From contig JAMLIR010000024.1 of assembly GCA_023954045.1 (NCBI GenBank), positions 1-64,000 on the forward strand: a DNA stretch of 64,000 nt, read 5' to 3'. The DNA comes from Burkholderiaceae bacterium. Lineage in GTDB: Bacteria; Pseudomonadota; Gammaproteobacteria; Burkholderiales; Burkholderiaceae_E. Each line of letters begins with the position of its first letter. Within the stretch, counting starts at the first letter, position 1. The position numbers and the translations under genes were made by a program. The notes under the pieces were generated by a model. That model did not search any database. It was given only the letters and a program-made list of their open reading frames with translations, and was not told where the DNA came from. Positions 9,255 to 48,141 of this stretch are shown one piece after another.

Positions 9255-9260
9255 GTTAGA

Positions 9261-9932
9261 ATGGAAAAACGCACCCTCAAGGACCTGCTCTACGAGCAAG
9301 TCGCCCGCATCGGACGCGCCGTCTCCAGCCCGAAGCGGCTCGAGATCCTGGAATTGCTCGCGCAGGGCGAGAAGACCGTCGAGACGCTGGCCGGCGAGCT
9401 CGCGATCGACGTCAAGCTCGCCAGCGCTCACCTGCGGTCGCTGAAGGCGGCGCGGCTGGTCGACGCGCGGCGCGATGGCAGATACGTCGTCTATCGCCTC
9501 AGCGGCACCGATGTGGCGAACCTGTGGGTCGTGTTGCGCGAGGTGGCCGAGGAGCACGTGCTCGAACTGCGCGTTGCGCTCCAGCAGATGGTGAGCGATC
9601 CGGACAAGCTGGCGTCCGTCGGTCGCGAGACCTTGCTGCAGCAGGCGCGCGATGGCGAAGTGCTGGTCATCGACGTGCGTCCGCGCGAGGAGTACGACGT
9701 GGCGCACCTGCCCTTCGCCCGATCGATGCCGGTCGCCGAGATCGAGCGCCGGCTCTCGGAGCTGCCGCGCGACCGGCAGATCGTCGCCTACTGCCGCGGG
9801 CCGTTCTGCCTGCTGTCCGACGAAGCCGTCGACCTGCTGGCCGCACGCGGATTCGAGGTGCGCAAGATTCGCGACGGCGTGAGCGAATGGAAGGCCGCGG
9901 GCCTTCCGCTCGCGGCCGGTCCGCAGGCCTGA
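9261..9932 (+). CDS. ArsR-family repressor fused to a rhodanese domain
   Basis: A 223-residue two-domain regulator. Residues about 8-95 form an ArsR/SmtB winged helix (SPKRLEILELL, LAIDVKLASAHLRSLKAARL). Residues about 125-218 form a rhodanese domain with active-site loop Y177-CRGPFC, so catalytic C178 and second cysteine C183. Fusions of this kind are thought to sense sulfane sulfur or persulfides, with the rhodanese domain handling the thiol signal. The ATG at 9261 lacks a ribosome binding site and may be the first base of the transcript. It heads an operon of sulfur-related genes ending at 13561, so self-regulation is likely. Confidence 0.88.
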   Translation: MEKRTLKDLLYEQVARIGRAVSSPKRLEILELLAQGEKTVETLAGELAIDVKLASAHLRSLKAARLVDARRDGRYVVYRLSGTDVANLWVVLREVAEEHVLELRVALQQMVSDPDKLASVGRETLLQQARDGEVLVIDVRPREEYDVAHLPFARSMPVAEIERRLSELPRDRQIVAYCRGPFCLLSDEAVDLLAARGFEVRKIRDGVSEWKAAGLPLAAGPQA

Positions 9933-35820: not shown

Positions 35821-35870
35821 CGCGGGCGAGGCTGCCCTGCGCATCGGGATGGCCCGACGAGCGAAGCCAT

Positions 35871-36329
35871 ATGAAGCCGCGAGTCAGCCTGGTCACACTC
35901 GGCGTCGACGATCTCGAGCAGGCGATCCGCTTTTATCGTGACGGGCTCGGGCTGCCGACCGACGGCATCGAAGGCGCGCAGTTCGAACAAGGCGCGGTGG
36001 CGTTCTTCGACCTGCAGCCGGGCCTGCGGCTGGCGCTGTGGCCGCGCACGAGCCTGGCGCACGACAGCGGACTGCCCGTCGCCGGCTCGGCGAATCCGGG
36101 CGCATTCTGCCTCGCGCACAACGTCGACTCGAAGGCCGAAGTCGATCAAGTGATGGCCGAGGCGGGCGCGGCAGGCGCCGCCATCGTGCAGCCGGCCCGC
36201 GACACGTTCTGGGGAGGCTACGCCGGCTACTTCCGCGATCCGGACGGTCACCTTTGGGAGGTGGCCTGCAGTCCCCAGGCCGCGCGTGCGACGACGTCGC
36301 AGGCGGCCGCGCGGCGGTCCGTGCGCTGA
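35871..36329 (+). CDS. VOC (glyoxalase/bleomycin-resistance) family protein
   Basis: A 152-residue metal-binding VOC fold with two beta-alpha-beta-beta-beta modules. It begins VSLVTLGVDDLEQAIRFYRD and ends GYFRDPDGHLWEVACSP, which supplies the C-terminal Glu ligand. The family covers glyoxalase I, dioxygenases and resistance proteins, and the substrate cannot be read from sequence. It lies 50 bp after GST. Confidence 0.85.
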   Translation: MKPRVSLVTLGVDDLEQAIRFYRDGLGLPTDGIEGAQFEQGAVAFFDLQPGLRLALWPRTSLAHDSGLPVAGSANPGAFCLAHNVDSKAEVDQVMAEAGAAGAAIVQPARDTFWGGYAGYFRDPDGHLWEVACSPQAARATTSQAAARRSVR

Positions 36330-36431
36330 AGGCAGCCGCGTTCGCGACCACGGCGGAGGCCGATCTCGTCGACGCGCTGCGGCCGCCGCAGCTTGTCGGC
36401 CTCCATGGTGGCGCGCATACTCAACCGTCGA

Positions 36432-36461
36432 GATGCCCCGATTCGGGCGCCGTGGGGCATC
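36432..36461. repeat. 8-bp inverted repeat upstream of the selenoprotein gene
   Basis: GATGCCCC (36432-36439) and GGGGCATC (36454-36461) are perfect complements around a 14-base spacer. It sits in the 197-bp gap between the VOC gene and the methyltransferase. It could be an operator or an RNA hairpin. There is no T run. The rest of the gap shows no gene. Confidence 0.45.
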
Positions 36462-36526
36462 GGCGTACTCGACACACCCCAACGCATCGTCGCTACGGCC
36501 GGCGTCCGATCCGGGAGGTGCCTGTC

Positions 36527-37297
36527 ATGGAAACACCCGTCGATCCCTCCGCATTGCGCGAGGAAGTCAAGAAGAAGTACCGCGACGTTGCTCTTCGGCC
36601 CGATGGCCAGTACCACTTCCACACCGGACGAAGGCTGGCGGCGAAGCTGGGCTACGATCGGGCAGTCGTCGACGCAATGCCGGATTCGGCGGTCGAGTCC
36701 TTCGCCGGCGTCGGCAATCCCTTTGCGACGGGGGCGCTCTTGCCCGGCGAGCGAGTGGTCGACGCCGGCTCGGGTGGCGGCTTCGATTGCTTCGTCGCGG
36801 CGCGCCAGGTCGGCCCCGGCGGCCGGATCGTCGGCGTGGACATGCTCGCGGAGATGCTCGATCGGTCCCGGCTTGCGGCCGAAATGCAGGGCTTGTCCAA
36901 CATCGAATTCCGGGAGGGTTTCGTCGAGAAGATGCCGGTCGAGGACGGCTGGGCCGACGTCGTCATCAGCAACGGGGTGCTGAATCTGTGTGCCGACAAG
37001 CGCGCCGCCTTCGACGAGATCCGGCGGGTGCTGCGTCCGGGCGGACGCCTGCAGTTCGCCGACATCGCGAACGGCGCGCCGGTTCCCGCCACGGCGCGCG
37101 GAATCATCGACCTGTGGACGGCATGAATCGCCGGCGGTCTTCCGTGTGAAGCCTGGCGATCGATGCTGAACGAGGCCGGATTCGTCGACGTGCGCATCAG
37201 TGAACCCTGGGACACCTTCCGCGATGCCGCGGGCGAGAAGAATGCGCGCAAGTTCGAGGTCTACGGATACGCGTTCGTGGCGCGAAAATCCGGTTGA
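36527..37297 (+). CDS. Selenocysteine-containing SAM methyltransferase, ArsM-like (UGA at codon 200)
   Basis: The ATG at 36527 follows GGGAGG. The frame runs to UGA at 37124-37126 and continues without other stops to TGA at 37295-37297, for 256 residues in total. The N-terminal part is a class I methyltransferase (motif I VVDAGSGGGFD, residues 77-87, then GVDMLAEML and VISNGVLNL). The layout matches arsenite methyltransferases, although their GCGNP cysteine is valine here (GVGNP, 61-65). The segment after UGA (IAGGLPCEAWRSMLNEAGF and on to VYGYAFVARKSG) completes the family C-terminus. UGA falls exactly where AS3MT has Cys156 (LWGECLGGAL against LWTA-UGA-IAGGL). A SECIS-like hairpin follows at once. 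Cys207 could pair with Sec200. The substrate is not proven. Confidence 0.82.
37127..37160 (+). promoter_or_regulatory. SECIS element for Sec200
   Basis: Directly after the UGA, AUCGCC (37127-37132) pairs with GGCGAU (37155-37160). The upper stem pairs G37136-G37137 with C37152-C37153 and CUUC (37139-37142) with GAAG (37148-37151), leaving U37138 bulged and an apical loop CGUGU. Counting the U of UGA as 1, the bulged U is 15 and loop G-U is 21-22. In E. coli fdhF they are U17 and G23-U24, so the spacing between the bulge and the loop GU is the same. Confidence 0.75.
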
Positions 37298-37304
37298 CGT
37301 CGCG

Positions 37305-37324
37305 CGCGGCCTTGGCGGGCCGCG
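37305..37324. terminator. GC hairpin between the selenoprotein gene and the convergent VOC gene
   Basis: CGCGGCC (37305-37311) and GGCCGCG (37318-37324) form a perfect 7-bp stem with a 6-base loop. It lies between the TGA at 37295 and the convergent stop at 37325. No T run. Confidence 0.4.
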
Positions 37325-37699
37325 TCACTGCATCGAGTGGAGCCCGAACATGTTCCCCTCGGTGTCGATCGCGTGCGCGATGAAGCCGTACTCTCCGATC
37401 GACATCTTCGGGCTCTCGATGCGCCCGCCGGCCTGAAGCACGCGGTTCGCCTCGTCGGCGCAGTCGGCACAGCTGAAGTACACCATCGTCCCGCCGCCGC
37501 CCGAGGCGACGCCCGGCATCCTGATCAGTGCGCCCGACGCGCCCCCCGCGTCGGGCGCCATCGGAAATGCCCACATCTCGTGGGGGCCGGGGCTGTTCAG
37601 TCTTTGCAGTGTCGTCCCGAACACCGCCTCGTAGAAGCGCCGGGCGCGTTCCATGTCCTGCACGTAGATCTCGAACCAGCCAACCGGGTTGCGTGTCAT
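37325..37699 (-). CDS. VOC family protein (second copy type)
   Basis: A 124-residue VOC protein with a good ribosome binding site (AAGGAG). It starts VGWFEIYVQDMERARRFYEAVFGT and ends GFIAHAIDTEGNMFGLHSMQ. It contains a CADCADEANRVLQAGG helix typical of PhnB/YdhR-like glyoxalase-fold proteins. Substrate unknown. It follows the BTAD regulator gene on the same strand with about 68 bp between them. Confidence 0.85.
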   Translation of the reverse strand: MTRNPVGWFEIYVQDMERARRFYEAVFGTTLQRLNSPGPHEMWAFPMAPDAGGASGALIRMPGVASGGGGTMVYFSCADCADEANRVLQAGGRIESPKMSIGEYGFIAHAIDTEGNMFGLHSMQ

Positions 37700-37767
37700 C
37701 GTGTCACTCCTTCGTGGCGCCGTGCGCCGTGTGCCCGGTCGTGGCGGATCCGGGTCGGCATCGCGCG

Positions 37768-42165: not shown

Positions 42166-45100
42166 TCAGGGCGGTTGCGGGAGGGTGGCGACACCCGGCC
42201 CATGGGCCGTGCCGAGAAACGCCTCGAGCGCCCGTTCCGTGTGCGTGCCGGCACGGGCCGCCAGCGCAGCCGGCGCGCCCGTCGAGACGATGCGGCCGCC
42301 CCCGGCGCCACCCTCGGGGCCGAGGTCGACGATCCAGTCGGCCTCGGCCCAGATGTCGAGGTTGTGCTCGACCACCACCAACGTGTTGCCCGCGTCGACC
42401 AGCCGGTGCAGCACCCGGATCAGCTTCTCGACGTCGGCCATGTGCAGCCCCACCGTGGGCTCGTCCAGCACGTACAGCGTGTGCGGGCCCGGAGGCAGCG
42501 TCCTGCCCGCCGCGAGCGCCTTCGCGCGGGCGCGCGCGACGCGCGGGTCGTCGTCGGCGCCTTCGCCGCGGTTGCGCACCTTGGCGAGCTCGGTGACCAG
42601 CTTGATGCGCTGCGCCTCGCCTCCCGACAGCGTCGGGCTCGGCTGGCCGAGCGTCAGGTAGCCCAGGCCGACGTCCTGCAGCAGTCGCAGCGGGTGGGCG
42701 ATGCCGGGGTGTGCCGCGAAGAAGTCGACGGCCTCGTCGACGTCCATCGCCAGCACGTCGCCGATGCTGCGGCCGCGCAGTCGAACCTCGAGCGTCTCGC
42801 GGTTGAAGCGTCGCCCGCGGCAGACGTCGCACAGCACCTTGACGTCCGGCAGGAAGCTCATCTCGATCGTCTGCTGGCCCTGTCCTTCGCAGGCCTCGCA
42901 GCGTCCGCCCCCGGTGTTGAAGCTGAAGCGCCCCGGGCTCCAGCCGCGGATGCGCGCCTCGCCGGTGTCGGCGAACAGCCTTCGGATCGCGTCCCAGAAA
43001 CCGACGTAGGTGGCGGGACACGAGCGCGGCGTCTTGCCGATCGGCGTCTGGTCGACTTCGAGCACGCGCGTGATGCCGTCCCAGCCCTCGATGCGCTCGA
43101 CGCCGGCCAGCGGCGGTGCGGCCTTGCGCTGGTTGCGGGCGCGAACCTGCGCTGCGACGTTCGCGAGCAGCACGTCGCGCGCCAGCGTCGACTTGCCGGA
43201 ACCGGAGACGCCCGTGACGACCGTCATCCGGCGCAGCGGGATGCGGGCGACGACGTGGCGAAGGTTGTGCAGGTGTGCGCCGCGCAGCACGAGCCAGTCT
43301 GCGTCTCCCGGCGGAGGGACCGCCCGCGGCGCAGCGAGCGGATGCGCCAGCGGGTTCGCGAGGAAGCGGCCGGTCAGGCTGTCCGGATGGCGCGCCAGCT
43401 CCTCGTGATGTCCGGCGGCGATGATCCGGCCGCCGAGCTTGCCGGCGCCCGGCCCGATGTCGATGACGTGGTCGGCGCGGCGGATCGTGTCCTCGTCGTG
43501 CTCGACGACCAGCAGCGTGTTGCCCTTGTCGCGCAGTGCCTCGAGCGTGTCGAGCAGGATCCGGTTGTCGTGCGGGTGAAGTCCGATCGTCGGCTCGTCG
43601 AGCACGTAGCAGACACCCTGCAGGTTCGAGCCGAGCTGCGCGGCCAGCCGAATCCGCTGGGCTTCGCCGCCGGACAGCGTCGGCGCGGCGCGATCGAGCG
43701 TCAGGTAGCCGAGCCCGACCTCCGACAGGAACGCGAGCCGCGAACGGATCTCGGCCAGCACGTCGCGGGCGATCTCCTGCTCGCGGCCGGCGAAGCCGAC
43801 CTGCCTGAGCCAGCGCGCGCAATCGGCGACGGGCATCGCAGTCAGCTCGGCGATCGACAGGTCGAGCAGCCTCACCGCGAGCGCCGCGCGATTCAGGCGT
43901 TTTCCGGCGCAGGCGGGGCAGGGCTCGGTGGCGGCCGACTCGGCGCCGCCGGCCTCGGCCGCGTCGCCTTCGGCCTGCGCGCCGAGCTGGTCGGCGAGTC
44001 TCTCGGCGAGCGCGCCGACCGCTTCGGCGGTCGAGTCCTCGTCGGAGCGGCCCTTCGGGTCGAGGGTCGGCACGTACGGGAGCTTCACGCCGGTGCCGAG
44101 GCAGCTCTGGCACCAGCCGATCTTCGAGTTGAACGAGAACATCCGCGGATCGGGCTCGGGGAAGCTCGTGCCGCACGACGAGCATGCGCGCCGGGTCGAA
44201 AACAGCTTCGTCCCGATCGCGGCCGACGCCCGAGCGTAACCGTCGGCGTCGCCGTGGTCGGCGGCGGCGCGCAGGTCGTCGAGTGGGGCCGCGACCATCA
44301 CGATCCCCTTGCCGAGGTCGAGCGCGCGGCGCAGCGCGTCGCGCAGCGGCGCCTCGTCGGCCGCGTCGGCCACGAGATCGGCGACCGGCAGTTCGATGTC
44401 GTGCTCCACGTAGCGGTCGAGCCGCGGAAACCGGTCGGTCGGCAGGAAGCGGCCATCGACGCGAAGGTGGCCGAAGCCCTTGGCCTTCGCCCATTTCGCG
44501 AGGTCGGTGTAGACCCCCTTGCGCGCGACGACCAGCGGTGCGAGCAGGCCGACATGGCGGCCTCGGTAGTCGCGCAGGATCCGCGCGGCGATCGCGTCGA
44601 AGCCCTGCGGCTCGATTCGCACGTTGCAGTCGGGGCAGTACTGCTGGCCGAGCTTGACGTAGAGCAGCCGCAGGAAGTGGTAGATCTCGGTCAGCGTCGC
44701 CACGGTACTCTTGCGGCCGCCGCGGCTCGTGCGCTGTTCGATCGCCACCGTCGGGGGGATGCCGAACACGCCGTCGACGTCGGGCCGCGACGAGGGCTGT
44801 ACGAACTGGCGCGCGTAGGCGTTCAGCGACTCGAGGTAGCGGCGTTGCCCTTCGCCGAAGATCACGTCGAAGGCGAGGGTCGACTTGCCGGACCCCGAGA
44901 CGCCGGTGATCACCGTCAGCTTGTCGCGCGGCACCTCGACGTCGATGTTCTTCAGGTTGTGCTCGCGGGCGTGGTGCACGAAGATCGCTTCGCGCGCTCG
45001 ATCTCGGAGAACGCTCTGGAGCGATCTTGCTGCGGGCTCTTCGGCCCTCAGCGCGGCTGTGCTCGCTTCGTGGCCGGGCCGAAGAGCCGTGGCGTACTGG

Positions 45101-48100
45101 GCCAGCGCCTTCCCCGTGTGCGTGCGCGCTTCGCTCGCCAGCTGGGCGGGGGTGCCGGTGGCGACGATGCGGCCGCCGGCGTCGCCGCCTTCGGGGCCGA
45201 GGTCGATCAGCCAGTCGCTGGCGCGGATCACGTCGAGGTTGTGCTCGATGACCAGCAGCGAGTGGCCCGCGTCGAGCAGCTTGCGGAACGCGCGCAGCAG
45301 CTTGGCGACGTCGTCGAAGTGCAGCCCGGTGGTCGGCTCGTCGAACATGAACAGCGTGCCGCGCCGGCCGGCTCTCGCGAACGCGTGGCCGGCGGCGGCC
45401 GCCTGCGTCAGGCCCTGGCTCGCGGCCTCGGCGAGGAAGCCCGCGAGCTTGAGCCGCTGGGCCTCGCCGCCCGACAGCGTCGGCACCGGCTGGCCCAGGC
45501 GCAGGTAGTCGAGGCCGACGTCGGCCAGCGGCTGCAGCCGGGCGCGGATGTCGTGCTCGCCGGCGAACACCGCCAGCGCCTCGTGCACCGTGAGATCGAG
45601 CACTTCGGCGACCGAGCGGGGTCGGCCGTCGCGGCCCGTGACCGTGACCTCGAGCACCTCGGGGCGGAAGCGCTTGCCGTCGCAGTCGGGGCAGCGCAGG
45701 TAGACGTCGGACAGGAACTGCATCTCGACGTGCTCGAAGCCGTTGCCGCCGCAGGTGGGACAGCGGCCGTTGCCGGCGTTGAAGCTGAAGGTGCCGGCCG
45801 TGTAGCCGCGCTCCTTCGACCGCTCGGCCGCCGCGAAGCGCTTGCGCAGCGGGTCGAACGCGCCGACGTAGCTGACCGGGTTGCTGCGTGCAGTCTTGCC
45901 GATCGGCGACTGGTCGACGAAGACCACGTCGCCGATCCAGTCGTCGCCGAGCAGGCGGTCGTGCGCGCCCGGCGACTCGGTCGGCCTGCCGCGCGCTTTC
46001 AGAAGCGCGGGCAGCAGCACGTTCTGCATCAGCGTCGACTTGCCGCTGCCCGAGACGCCGGTCAGGCAGACCAGTCGCTCGAGCGGGATCTCGATCGAGA
46101 CGTTCTTCAGGTTGTGCTCGCGCGCACCTTCGAGCACCAGGCGCTTCGTTCCGGCGACGACCGGCTGGGGGCGCCCGGTGTCGACCTGCCTGCGCCCCGC
46201 CAGGTAGTCGCCGGTCAGCGTGTCGGACGCGCGCAGCGCCTGCGGATCGCCGTCGAAGACGACCCGACCGCCGCGCTCGCCGGGCCCGGGCCCGATGTCG
46301 ATCATCCGGTCGGCGGCGAACATCACCTGCGGGTCGTGCTCGACGACGACCAGCGAGTTGCCGGCGTCACGCAGCCGCCGCATCACGCCGATCACGCGGT
46401 TCATGTCGCGCGGATGCAGGCCGATCGACGGCTCGTCGAGGACGAACAGCGTGTTGACCAGCGAAGTGCCGAGCGCGGTCGTCAGGTTGATCCGCTGCAC
46501 CTCGCCGCCCGACAGCGTGCGCGACTGGCGGTCGAGCGTCAGGTAGCCGAGCCCCACCTGCTGCAGGTAGCGCAGCCGCGCGCGCGTCTCGGCGAGCAGC
46601 AGGTCCGCCGCCTCGTCGAGCGGCGCGGGAAGCCTCAGCGCCTCGAAGAACGCGGCGACCCGGTCGATCGGCAGCAGCATCAGGTCGTGGATCGACAGCC
46701 CGGCGACCTGCTGCAGCTGCGCTTCGCTCCAGTCGACTCCCGCCGGCAAGAAGCGCGTGTACGACGCATCGTCCGCGGCGGCAGACAGCGCAGCATCCGC
46801 CTCCGCGAGCGAGCCGACGCGCCAGAGGAGGGCGTCGGGCTTCAGCCGAGCCCCGCGGCAGACCGTGCACGGCGTGTACGAGCGGTACTTCGACAACAGC
46901 ACCCGGATGTGCATCTTGTAGGCCTTCGACTCGAGCCAGTCGAAGAAGCGCCGGATGCCGTACCACTGCGACTGCCACTTGCCGGTCCAGTCGTCGCCGC
47001 CCTCGATCACCCAGCGGCGCTGCGCCTGGGGCAGCGAACGCCACGGGACGTCCATCGGCACGCCGGCCCTCGCGGCGAACTTCGCGAGGTCGCGCTGGCA
47101 CTCCTTGAAGCTCTCGGTCTGCCACGGCTTGACCGCGCCTTCGGCCAGCGTCTTTCCTTCGTCGGGGATCACCAGCCCGAGATCGATGCCGATCACGCGC
47201 CCGAAGCCGCGGCACGTGTCGCAGGCGCCCAGCGGCGAATTGAACGAGAACAGGCTGGGCAGCGGGTCGGCGTAGGCGATGTCGCAGTCGGCGCAGTGCA
47301 GGCCGGTGCTGAAGCGCCATCGCGCAGACTCGTTGCCCTCGTCGTCGAGAACGTGGACCGACACCCGGCCGTGGCCGCGTTGGATGGCGTTCTCGACCGC
47401 ATCCGCCACCCGCGAGTCCTCGACCGAGCCGGGACGGAAGCGATCCTGCACGACGTGAAGCACCCGGCCGCCCTCGTCCTGCCCGGTCGCCTGTACCCTG
47501 CCGTAGCCCTGCGCCTCGAGGTGGGCGCGGACCTCGTCCTCGCCGAAGTTCGCCGGCACGGCGACCGGGAAGCTCAGCACGAGTCTCGGATCACCGGCCG
47601 CGGCCGCGCGCGCGGCGATCGCATCGCGCACGCTCGCCACCGTGTCGCGGCGCACCGGTTGCGCGCAGCGCCGGCAGTGCAGCATCGCCGCGCGCGCGAA
47701 CAGCAGCTTCAGGTGGTCGTTGAGCTCGGTCATCGTCCCGACCGTCGAGCGCGACGTGCGCACCGGATTGGTCTGGTCGATCGCGATCGCCGGCGGCACG
47801 CCTTCGATCCGGTCGACCTGCGGCTTGTCCATCCGGTCGAGGAACTGGCGCGCGTAGGCCGAGAACGTCTCGACGTAGCGACGCTGTCCCTCGGCGTACA
47901 AGGTGTCGAACACCAGCGACGACTTGCCCGATCCCGAAACGCCGGTGACGACCACCAGCTCGCCGGTGGGGATGTCGAGGTCGACGTTCTTCAGGTTGTT
48001 CTGGCGCGCGCCGCGGATGCGGATCGCCTGCCGCAGCACCGATTGCAGCGGCCGGCCCGGCGCCTCTGCCGAGGCGGGGACATCGTTGGGGGGCATCGGA

Positions 48101-48141
48101 TCGTCGGGTGGTGCGGGAGGGGGCGACGAGTCTATCAGCAT
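42166..48141 (-). CDS. uvrA: Tandem (double-length) UvrA excinuclease ATPase
   Basis: A 1991-residue protein made of two complete UvrA units in one chain, the second beginning around residue 1050. Normal UvrA has about 940 residues. Four Walker A motifs (TGVSGSGKS, the first at residues 66-74) and four LSGGEAQR-type signatures are present. Each unit keeps its zinc sites (for example [32 protein letters not shown]). UvrA works as a dimer in nucleotide excision repair, and a tandem chain could form an intramolecular dimer. No clear LexA box was found upstream. A separate normal uvrA may exist elsewhere. Confidence 0.93.

Follow-up and report, generated by a model that had tools for sequence, protein, structure and literature searches.

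The selenocysteine (Sec)-containing form of the arsenite methyltransferase ArsM is a published selenoprotein family. It stands, with the motif UxxG, in the selenoprotein list of PMC13188914 and is likewise listed as a selenoprotein in PMC9312934; the table of the GOS survey (PMC2398784), as we read it, gives eight such proteins, and PMC5029168 counts 41 of them in 39 organisms. The main text of the deep-Sep paper (PMC12013277) mentions neither a methyltransferase nor ArsM. Recoding of a second stop codon is also on record, namely by a UAG-decoding tRNA-Sec of the Geodermatophilaceae (PMC5330540), with formate dehydrogenase, UGSC-motif proteins and AhpC among the UAG-Sec genes given there.

The DNA analyzed here (the window) is a stretch of 64,000 nucleotides from a Burkholderiaceae bacterium, and its forward strand carries an ArsM-like SAM-dependent methyltransferase gene (36527..37297) which is a divergent variant of this family. 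Direct reading bore out the frame given in the original prediction: an ATG at 36527 is followed by 199 sense codons, an in-frame TGA at 37124-37126, 56 further sense codons and a terminal TGA at 37295-37297, giving a protein of 256 residues if the internal UGA is read as Sec (inferred Sec200). The residues around this codon are LWTA-U-IAGGL, and the cysteine position of the GCGNP motif is occupied by valine (FAGVGNP), both exactly as had been claimed. Although the window protein has the fold and the UxxG motif in common with the described Sec arsenite methyltransferase (PRK11873/NF008823), it reached only 216.4 bits against NF008823, below the cut-off of 263. Its top NCBIfam match was NF041537 (ArsM_AhpD_UU; 226.6 bits against a cut-off of 510, profile positions 7-228 of 345), whereas NF041536 (ArsM_DUF2284_UU; 203.8 bits, cut-off 575) and NF047649 (methyltransferase/UXPK-star double selenoprotein; 198.0 bits, cut-off 460) came third and fourth. 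As their names and a table in PMC13188914 suggest, these three are longer proteins with two to three Sec residues, of which the window protein matches only the first ~228 positions. Overall, it stayed below the cut-off of all 25 NCBIfam models listed from a total of 34 matches.

Codon 200 was compared in 82 sequences, comprising the window gene (L019), a gene from a genome of the same order (G069, locus L020) and 80 of 120 confirmed named loci, all at least 62% identical to the window protein. It was a stop codon in every one of them, TGA in 80 and TAG in two, so that besides the window gene the same codon is a stop in 81 homologues (79 TGA and two TAG). The protein is conserved on either side of this codon (alignment A3, 33 of the 82 sequences), which together with the shared stop rules out a UGA arisen by chance. 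Among the homologues of less than 50% identity, the 19 that could be aligned at this column had a cysteine codon (TGC in 15, TGT in four), nine more falling short of the column, and at 39-43% identity there are members of the same clade with Cys. The exchange of Cys and Sec expected in the original prediction is thus visible, and a family with neither residue in this column and a frame ending there, which would have spoken against it, is not what the alignments hold.

The two TAG carriers are Blastococcus saxobsidens DSM 44509 (L108) and Modestobacter sp. DSM 44400 (L122). In both of these genomes, the anticodon of tRNA-Sec is CTA (loci L157 and L156), as opposed to TCA in the 19 remaining tRNA-Sec loci of the 21 that were examined. 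Since codon and anticodon switch together, this is strong evidence that tRNA-Sec reads codon 200. It is the same recoding as in the UAG-Sec genes of the Geodermatophilaceae, found here in Blastococcus and Modestobacter at a methyltransferase gene, which would join the UAG-Sec genes already described. ARAGORN labeled both CUA tRNAs as tRNA-Pyl. As judged from these comparisons of sequence, UGA almost certainly serves as a Sec codon at the level of the family.

A candidate bacterial SECIS hairpin lies just downstream of the codon on the forward strand (37136..37154), with a 5-nt loop, CGUGU, at 37143-37147; the window copy can form six of the seven pairs. In 66 of the 82 sequences, the hairpin begins at +10 after the stop, with the loop at +17 to +21 (CGTGT in 49, CGTGC in 15 and CGTTG in two), and in the remaining 16 the loop starts 2 nt later on a different stem. 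Within the 66, the pair +15/+23 is G-C in 53 and U-A in 13, being broken in none, while the pair is lost in 13 sequences at +12/+26 and in 10 at +13/+25. Across the 57 distinct rows, 94.5% of the cells pair, and sliding the partner lowers this to 46.6% or less. The covariation score was 0.154 against 0.104 after shuffling, and none of 500 shuffles reached the observed value. Both sides vary at only one of the seven pairs, which was equalled in 478 of the 500 shuffles. The folds of six single copies had unremarkable z-scores from −2.16 to +1.11, and the window copy folded as a single sequence (z −1.95) preferred a different pairing. A hairpin of the kind that follows bacterial Sec codons is therefore seen at the family level, and more weakly in single sequences. 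The codon for residue 207 falls in or at the hairpin loop; 64 of the 82 sequences encode Cys there, 16 Arg and two Leu, so Cys207 may owe more to the RNA than to the enzyme.

The search for selA, selB and tRNA-Sec covered 22 genomes: the window's own (G000), G069 and those that carry 20 of the 80 named loci. Among the 21 other carriers, selA was above the cut-off in 20 (exception G120; partial in G069 and G108), tRNA-Sec was found in 20 with scores of 63.7-78.8 bits (exception G106), and selB was above the cut-off in 19 (exceptions G069 and G120). All three occurred together in 18 of the 21, and none of the 21 was without all three. They lie no more than 10 kb apart on one contig in 15 of these carriers, and in G116 on one contig but far apart. 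In G106 (L163, L135), selA and selB are present, and tRNA-Sec was found neither genome-wide with Rfam nor with ARAGORN near selA and selB, which may be due to an assembly gap or an unusual tRNA-Sec; a tRNA-Sec nested in selB has been described in alphaproteobacteria (PMC8124441). G101 has two contigs (C25 and C84; L158 and L159), each with selB and a tRNA-Sec gene. Moreover, the methyltransferase gene itself adjoins sel genes in at least 5 of the 82 loci: the order is selA-selB-gene-selD on a single strand in L072 and selB-gene-selD in L076 and L099, and in L051 and L052 selA and selB are placed on the opposite strand ~80 bases upstream of the gene. In L100 and L123, selD is within 1.3 kb of the gene. 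Because many loci have short flanks, these linkage counts are lower bounds.

Another question is whether the codon is decoded in the window's own genome (4.02 Mb in 50 contigs, 97.16% complete). Of the genes whose search had been proposed, selD was recovered (436.9 bits), its presence being explained by mnmH (347.4 bits) and hence by selenouridine synthesis. No match to selA was found in this genome, not even a partial one. The best selB match, at 192.9 bits, stayed below the cut-off of 242.25; position and length suggest that it is EF-Tu. Likewise, tRNA-Sec was not found among 13 matches in this genome, the five best of which were typed as tRNA-Ser, Ser, Leu, Trp and Leu; the two that exceeded the gathering score (48.5 and 48.2 bits) are tRNA-Ser, and the eight weaker, untyped ones had at most 37 bits, as compared with the 63.7 bits or more in the carriers. 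A homologue of the Sec formate dehydrogenase of G008 was also absent from this genome at E ≤ 1e-30. The absence of selB and tRNA-Sec from the assembly is the very finding that the original prediction had named as contrary to itself. The reading of UGA as Sec is thus strongly supported for the family, and for this host we consider the chances of decoding about even.

Two explanations compete at this point. According to the first, to which we give slightly less than an even chance, selABC is present in the organism and a locus of a few kb went unassembled or unbinned. selA is present in 6 of the 17 same-genus genomes, and partial losses of the machinery are seen in G069 and G120: in G069, which is rated 100% complete, selA reaches base 70610 of a 70613-base contig, selB was not found, and tRNA-Sec is located on another contig, 1.2 kb short of its end. 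Since the three genes are clustered within 10 kb in most carriers, a single gap can remove all of them. The completeness of 97% argues against such a gap, as do the lack of even a fragment of selA and the fact that 0 of the 21 other carriers miss all three genes.

The second explanation concerns the origin of the gene. A piece of ~1.5 kb (35826..37314) is absent at the syntenic place in the genus relatives G002 and G005, as followed by blastn synteny and the junctions. Compared with G002, 35826-37314 is missing and ~30 bases are found there instead; compared with G005, a longer stretch is missing, 35836-37761, likewise with ~30 bases in its place. Among the six relatives fetched, the junction is clean in these two, the interval differs in G013, G003 and G007, and the contig ends in G014. 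The same inserted piece contains, upstream on the forward strand, an open frame (35871..36329) which, from the look of its sequence, we take to be a VOC/glyoxalase-like gene. No close homologue of the methyltransferase gene was present in the 17 same-genus genomes, where the listed matches had at most 44% identity, and its GC content is 0.66 as against 0.70 and 0.71 in the flanks. Horizontal gain appears likelier than repeated loss, and the gene was probably acquired in this way together with the VOC gene. Misbinning of the contig is unlikely: the UvrA of the window shares 77-97% identity with its same-genus matches and at most 77% with those from other genera of the family, and the tetranucleotides of the window (r 0.993-0.995) fit those of 12 sampled stretches of its own genome (r 0.948-0.996). 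As a separate observation, a UvrA-like protein of double length (1991 residues) is encoded at 42166-48141 on the reverse strand of the window, and a similar length is seen in several relatives from the genus, the family and the order.

It is accordingly conceivable, again at a little under even probability, that a true Sec gene was gained horizontally by a host in which the UGA ends translation, and that it is a recent non-functional passenger. The machinery not found in the assembly, the 11 of 17 same-genus genomes without selA, the restricted occurrence of the gene within the genus and its deviating GC content all fit this explanation. However, neither a second stop nor a frameshift is present, and the C-terminal part is constrained as in relatives with sel genes: for the part after the UGA, a Nei-Gojobori-type ratio was 0.23-0.41 between the window gene and five relatives, compared with 0.13-0.45 among those relatives. 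This constraint means that the gene has not drifted for long, and a recent loss of decoding may be compatible with it. Drafts such as G069 do, furthermore, lose sel genes.

The active site was compared with that of CmArsM, in which Cys72, Cys174 and Cys224 are presumably the arsenic-binding cysteines; their human equivalents we take to be 61, 156 and 206, respectively. In a profile alignment, Val62 corresponds to Cys72 (GCG), Gly150 to Cys174 (SNC) and Sec200 to Cys224 (GEC), so that the window protein has Val, Gly and Sec where CmArsM (structures 4fr0 and 6cx6) has its three cysteines; two further structures bear titles naming the mutants C72A (5eg5) and C224A (5jx7). The assignment of the UGA to Cys156 in the original prediction was wrong, as the cysteine of LWGECLGGAL is the one equivalent to CmArsM Cys224. 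The protein has an ArsM-like methyltransferase fold, and a Sec codon stands at position 224 (CmArsM numbering) in all 82 sequences, whereas Cys72 and Cys174 are absent from all 82. The Sec forms invariably contain His30, His32, Gly150 and Cys155, and position 62 holds Val in 81 of them, the remaining one having Ile. In 13 Cys forms of 38-60% identity, among which L041 aligns poorly, position 155 is Ser (nine), Val (two) or Ala (two), and five plasmid-borne Cys forms have Ser or Val there. At position 32, His is missing from the three of these 13 that can be aligned there (10 unaligned) and from all five plasmid forms. Val62 and Gly150 are shared by two of the 13 (L021 and L022) and by four of the five plasmid forms, which therefore look like a Cys branch of the clade. 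In these alignments, Cys155 and His32 thus track Sec. The clade differs from the described Sec arsenite methyltransferase by the loss of two of the three arsenic-binding cysteines and by the presence of Cys155 and His32, although some of the published sequences may belong here.

The gene neighborhood was surveyed on crude ORF calls. The scan took in 64 of the 77 ORFs upstream and 65 of the 78 downstream; the window's two ORFs and others, mostly short, were left out. Ten of the scanned upstream ORFs have an ArsR-type HTH and ten a rhodanese domain, DsrE was seen in two upstream and four downstream ORFs, and most neighbors are not common to the loci. With the ArsR-rhodanese protein of L122 as the query, 16 of the 82 loci gave a match, which in 12 cases lies no more than 200 bases from the gene (its own locus included). 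The window has a homologue of this regulator (47% identity) at ~9260-9920 on the forward strand, 26.6 kb from the Sec gene on the same contig. Plasmid records gave 28 matches at E ≤ 1e-40, all below 60% identity, and five regions were inspected. On the haloarchaeal plasmids (L210, L211 and L213), a Cys form of the clade is located directly behind an OsmC gene, with a carboxymuconolactone decarboxylase within ~1 kb in two of the three records; neither of the two is found beside the gene in the Chelatococcus plasmid relative. The neighbors suggest a link with the chemistry of sulfur and peroxide no less than with arsenic.

A functional arsenite methyltransferase, with Sec replacing the Cys224 equivalent as proposed for the published Sec-ArsM, is therefore doubtful. 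The fold, the alignment to CmArsM and the ArsR-type regulator next door in several loci agree with it, but not the Val or Ile and the Gly in place of Cys72 and Cys174, the fusion of the neighboring ArsR to a rhodanese, which is a sulfur link, or the OsmC and carboxymuconolactone decarboxylase genes next to the haloarchaeal Cys relatives. The idea of a selenolate at a metalloid- or thiol-binding site is weakened on its metalloid side, since two of the three arsenic-binding cysteines are lost and the cysteine had been misnumbered, and arsenic seems a rather unlikely substrate. An ordinary pseudogene or sequencing error, i.e., a nonsense mutation in a Cys-type arsM, would account for the broken frame and the machinery not seen in the assembly, but it is refuted, with hardly any probability left to it, by the same-codon stop in the other homologues and the tRNA-Sec anticodons that match the codon.

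The best explanation of the whole, in which we have high confidence, is an ArsM-fold SAM-dependent methyltransferase whose UGA is a Sec codon. SelB, putatively bound to the hairpin just after the UGA, would deliver Sec-tRNA, and the product of read-through would have 256 residues, in which Sec200 occupies the position of CmArsM Cys224. Here, next to the SAM site, Sec200 would serve as a soft nucleophile or ligand, along with Cys155 and possibly His30/His32, the likeliest substrate being a metalloid, chalcogen or thiol compound. More tentatively, and with a probability somewhat short of even, the Sec clade may have a chemistry of its own rather than that of an arsenite methyltransferase: Sec200 with the co-acquired Cys155 and His32 would perhaps form a selenenylsulfide switch or a soft-metal/chalcogen site coupled to methyl transfer, in line with the sulfur/peroxide neighborhoods (rhodanese, DsrE, OsmC) and with the incorporation of the gene into the sel operon in some alphaproteobacteria.

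What is added to the published family is the different active site of this clade, its UAG members with a CUA tRNA-Sec, the linkage to sel operons and a host without visible machinery. Either a few kb are missing from the genome of this host, or the host has a Sec gene that it is unable to read. The clade is widespread, and a standard gene finder would truncate its members. It harbors a natural UGA/UAG switch matched by the anticodons of tRNA-Sec, and in Cys155 and His32 it offers residues tracking Sec that are open to mutation tests.
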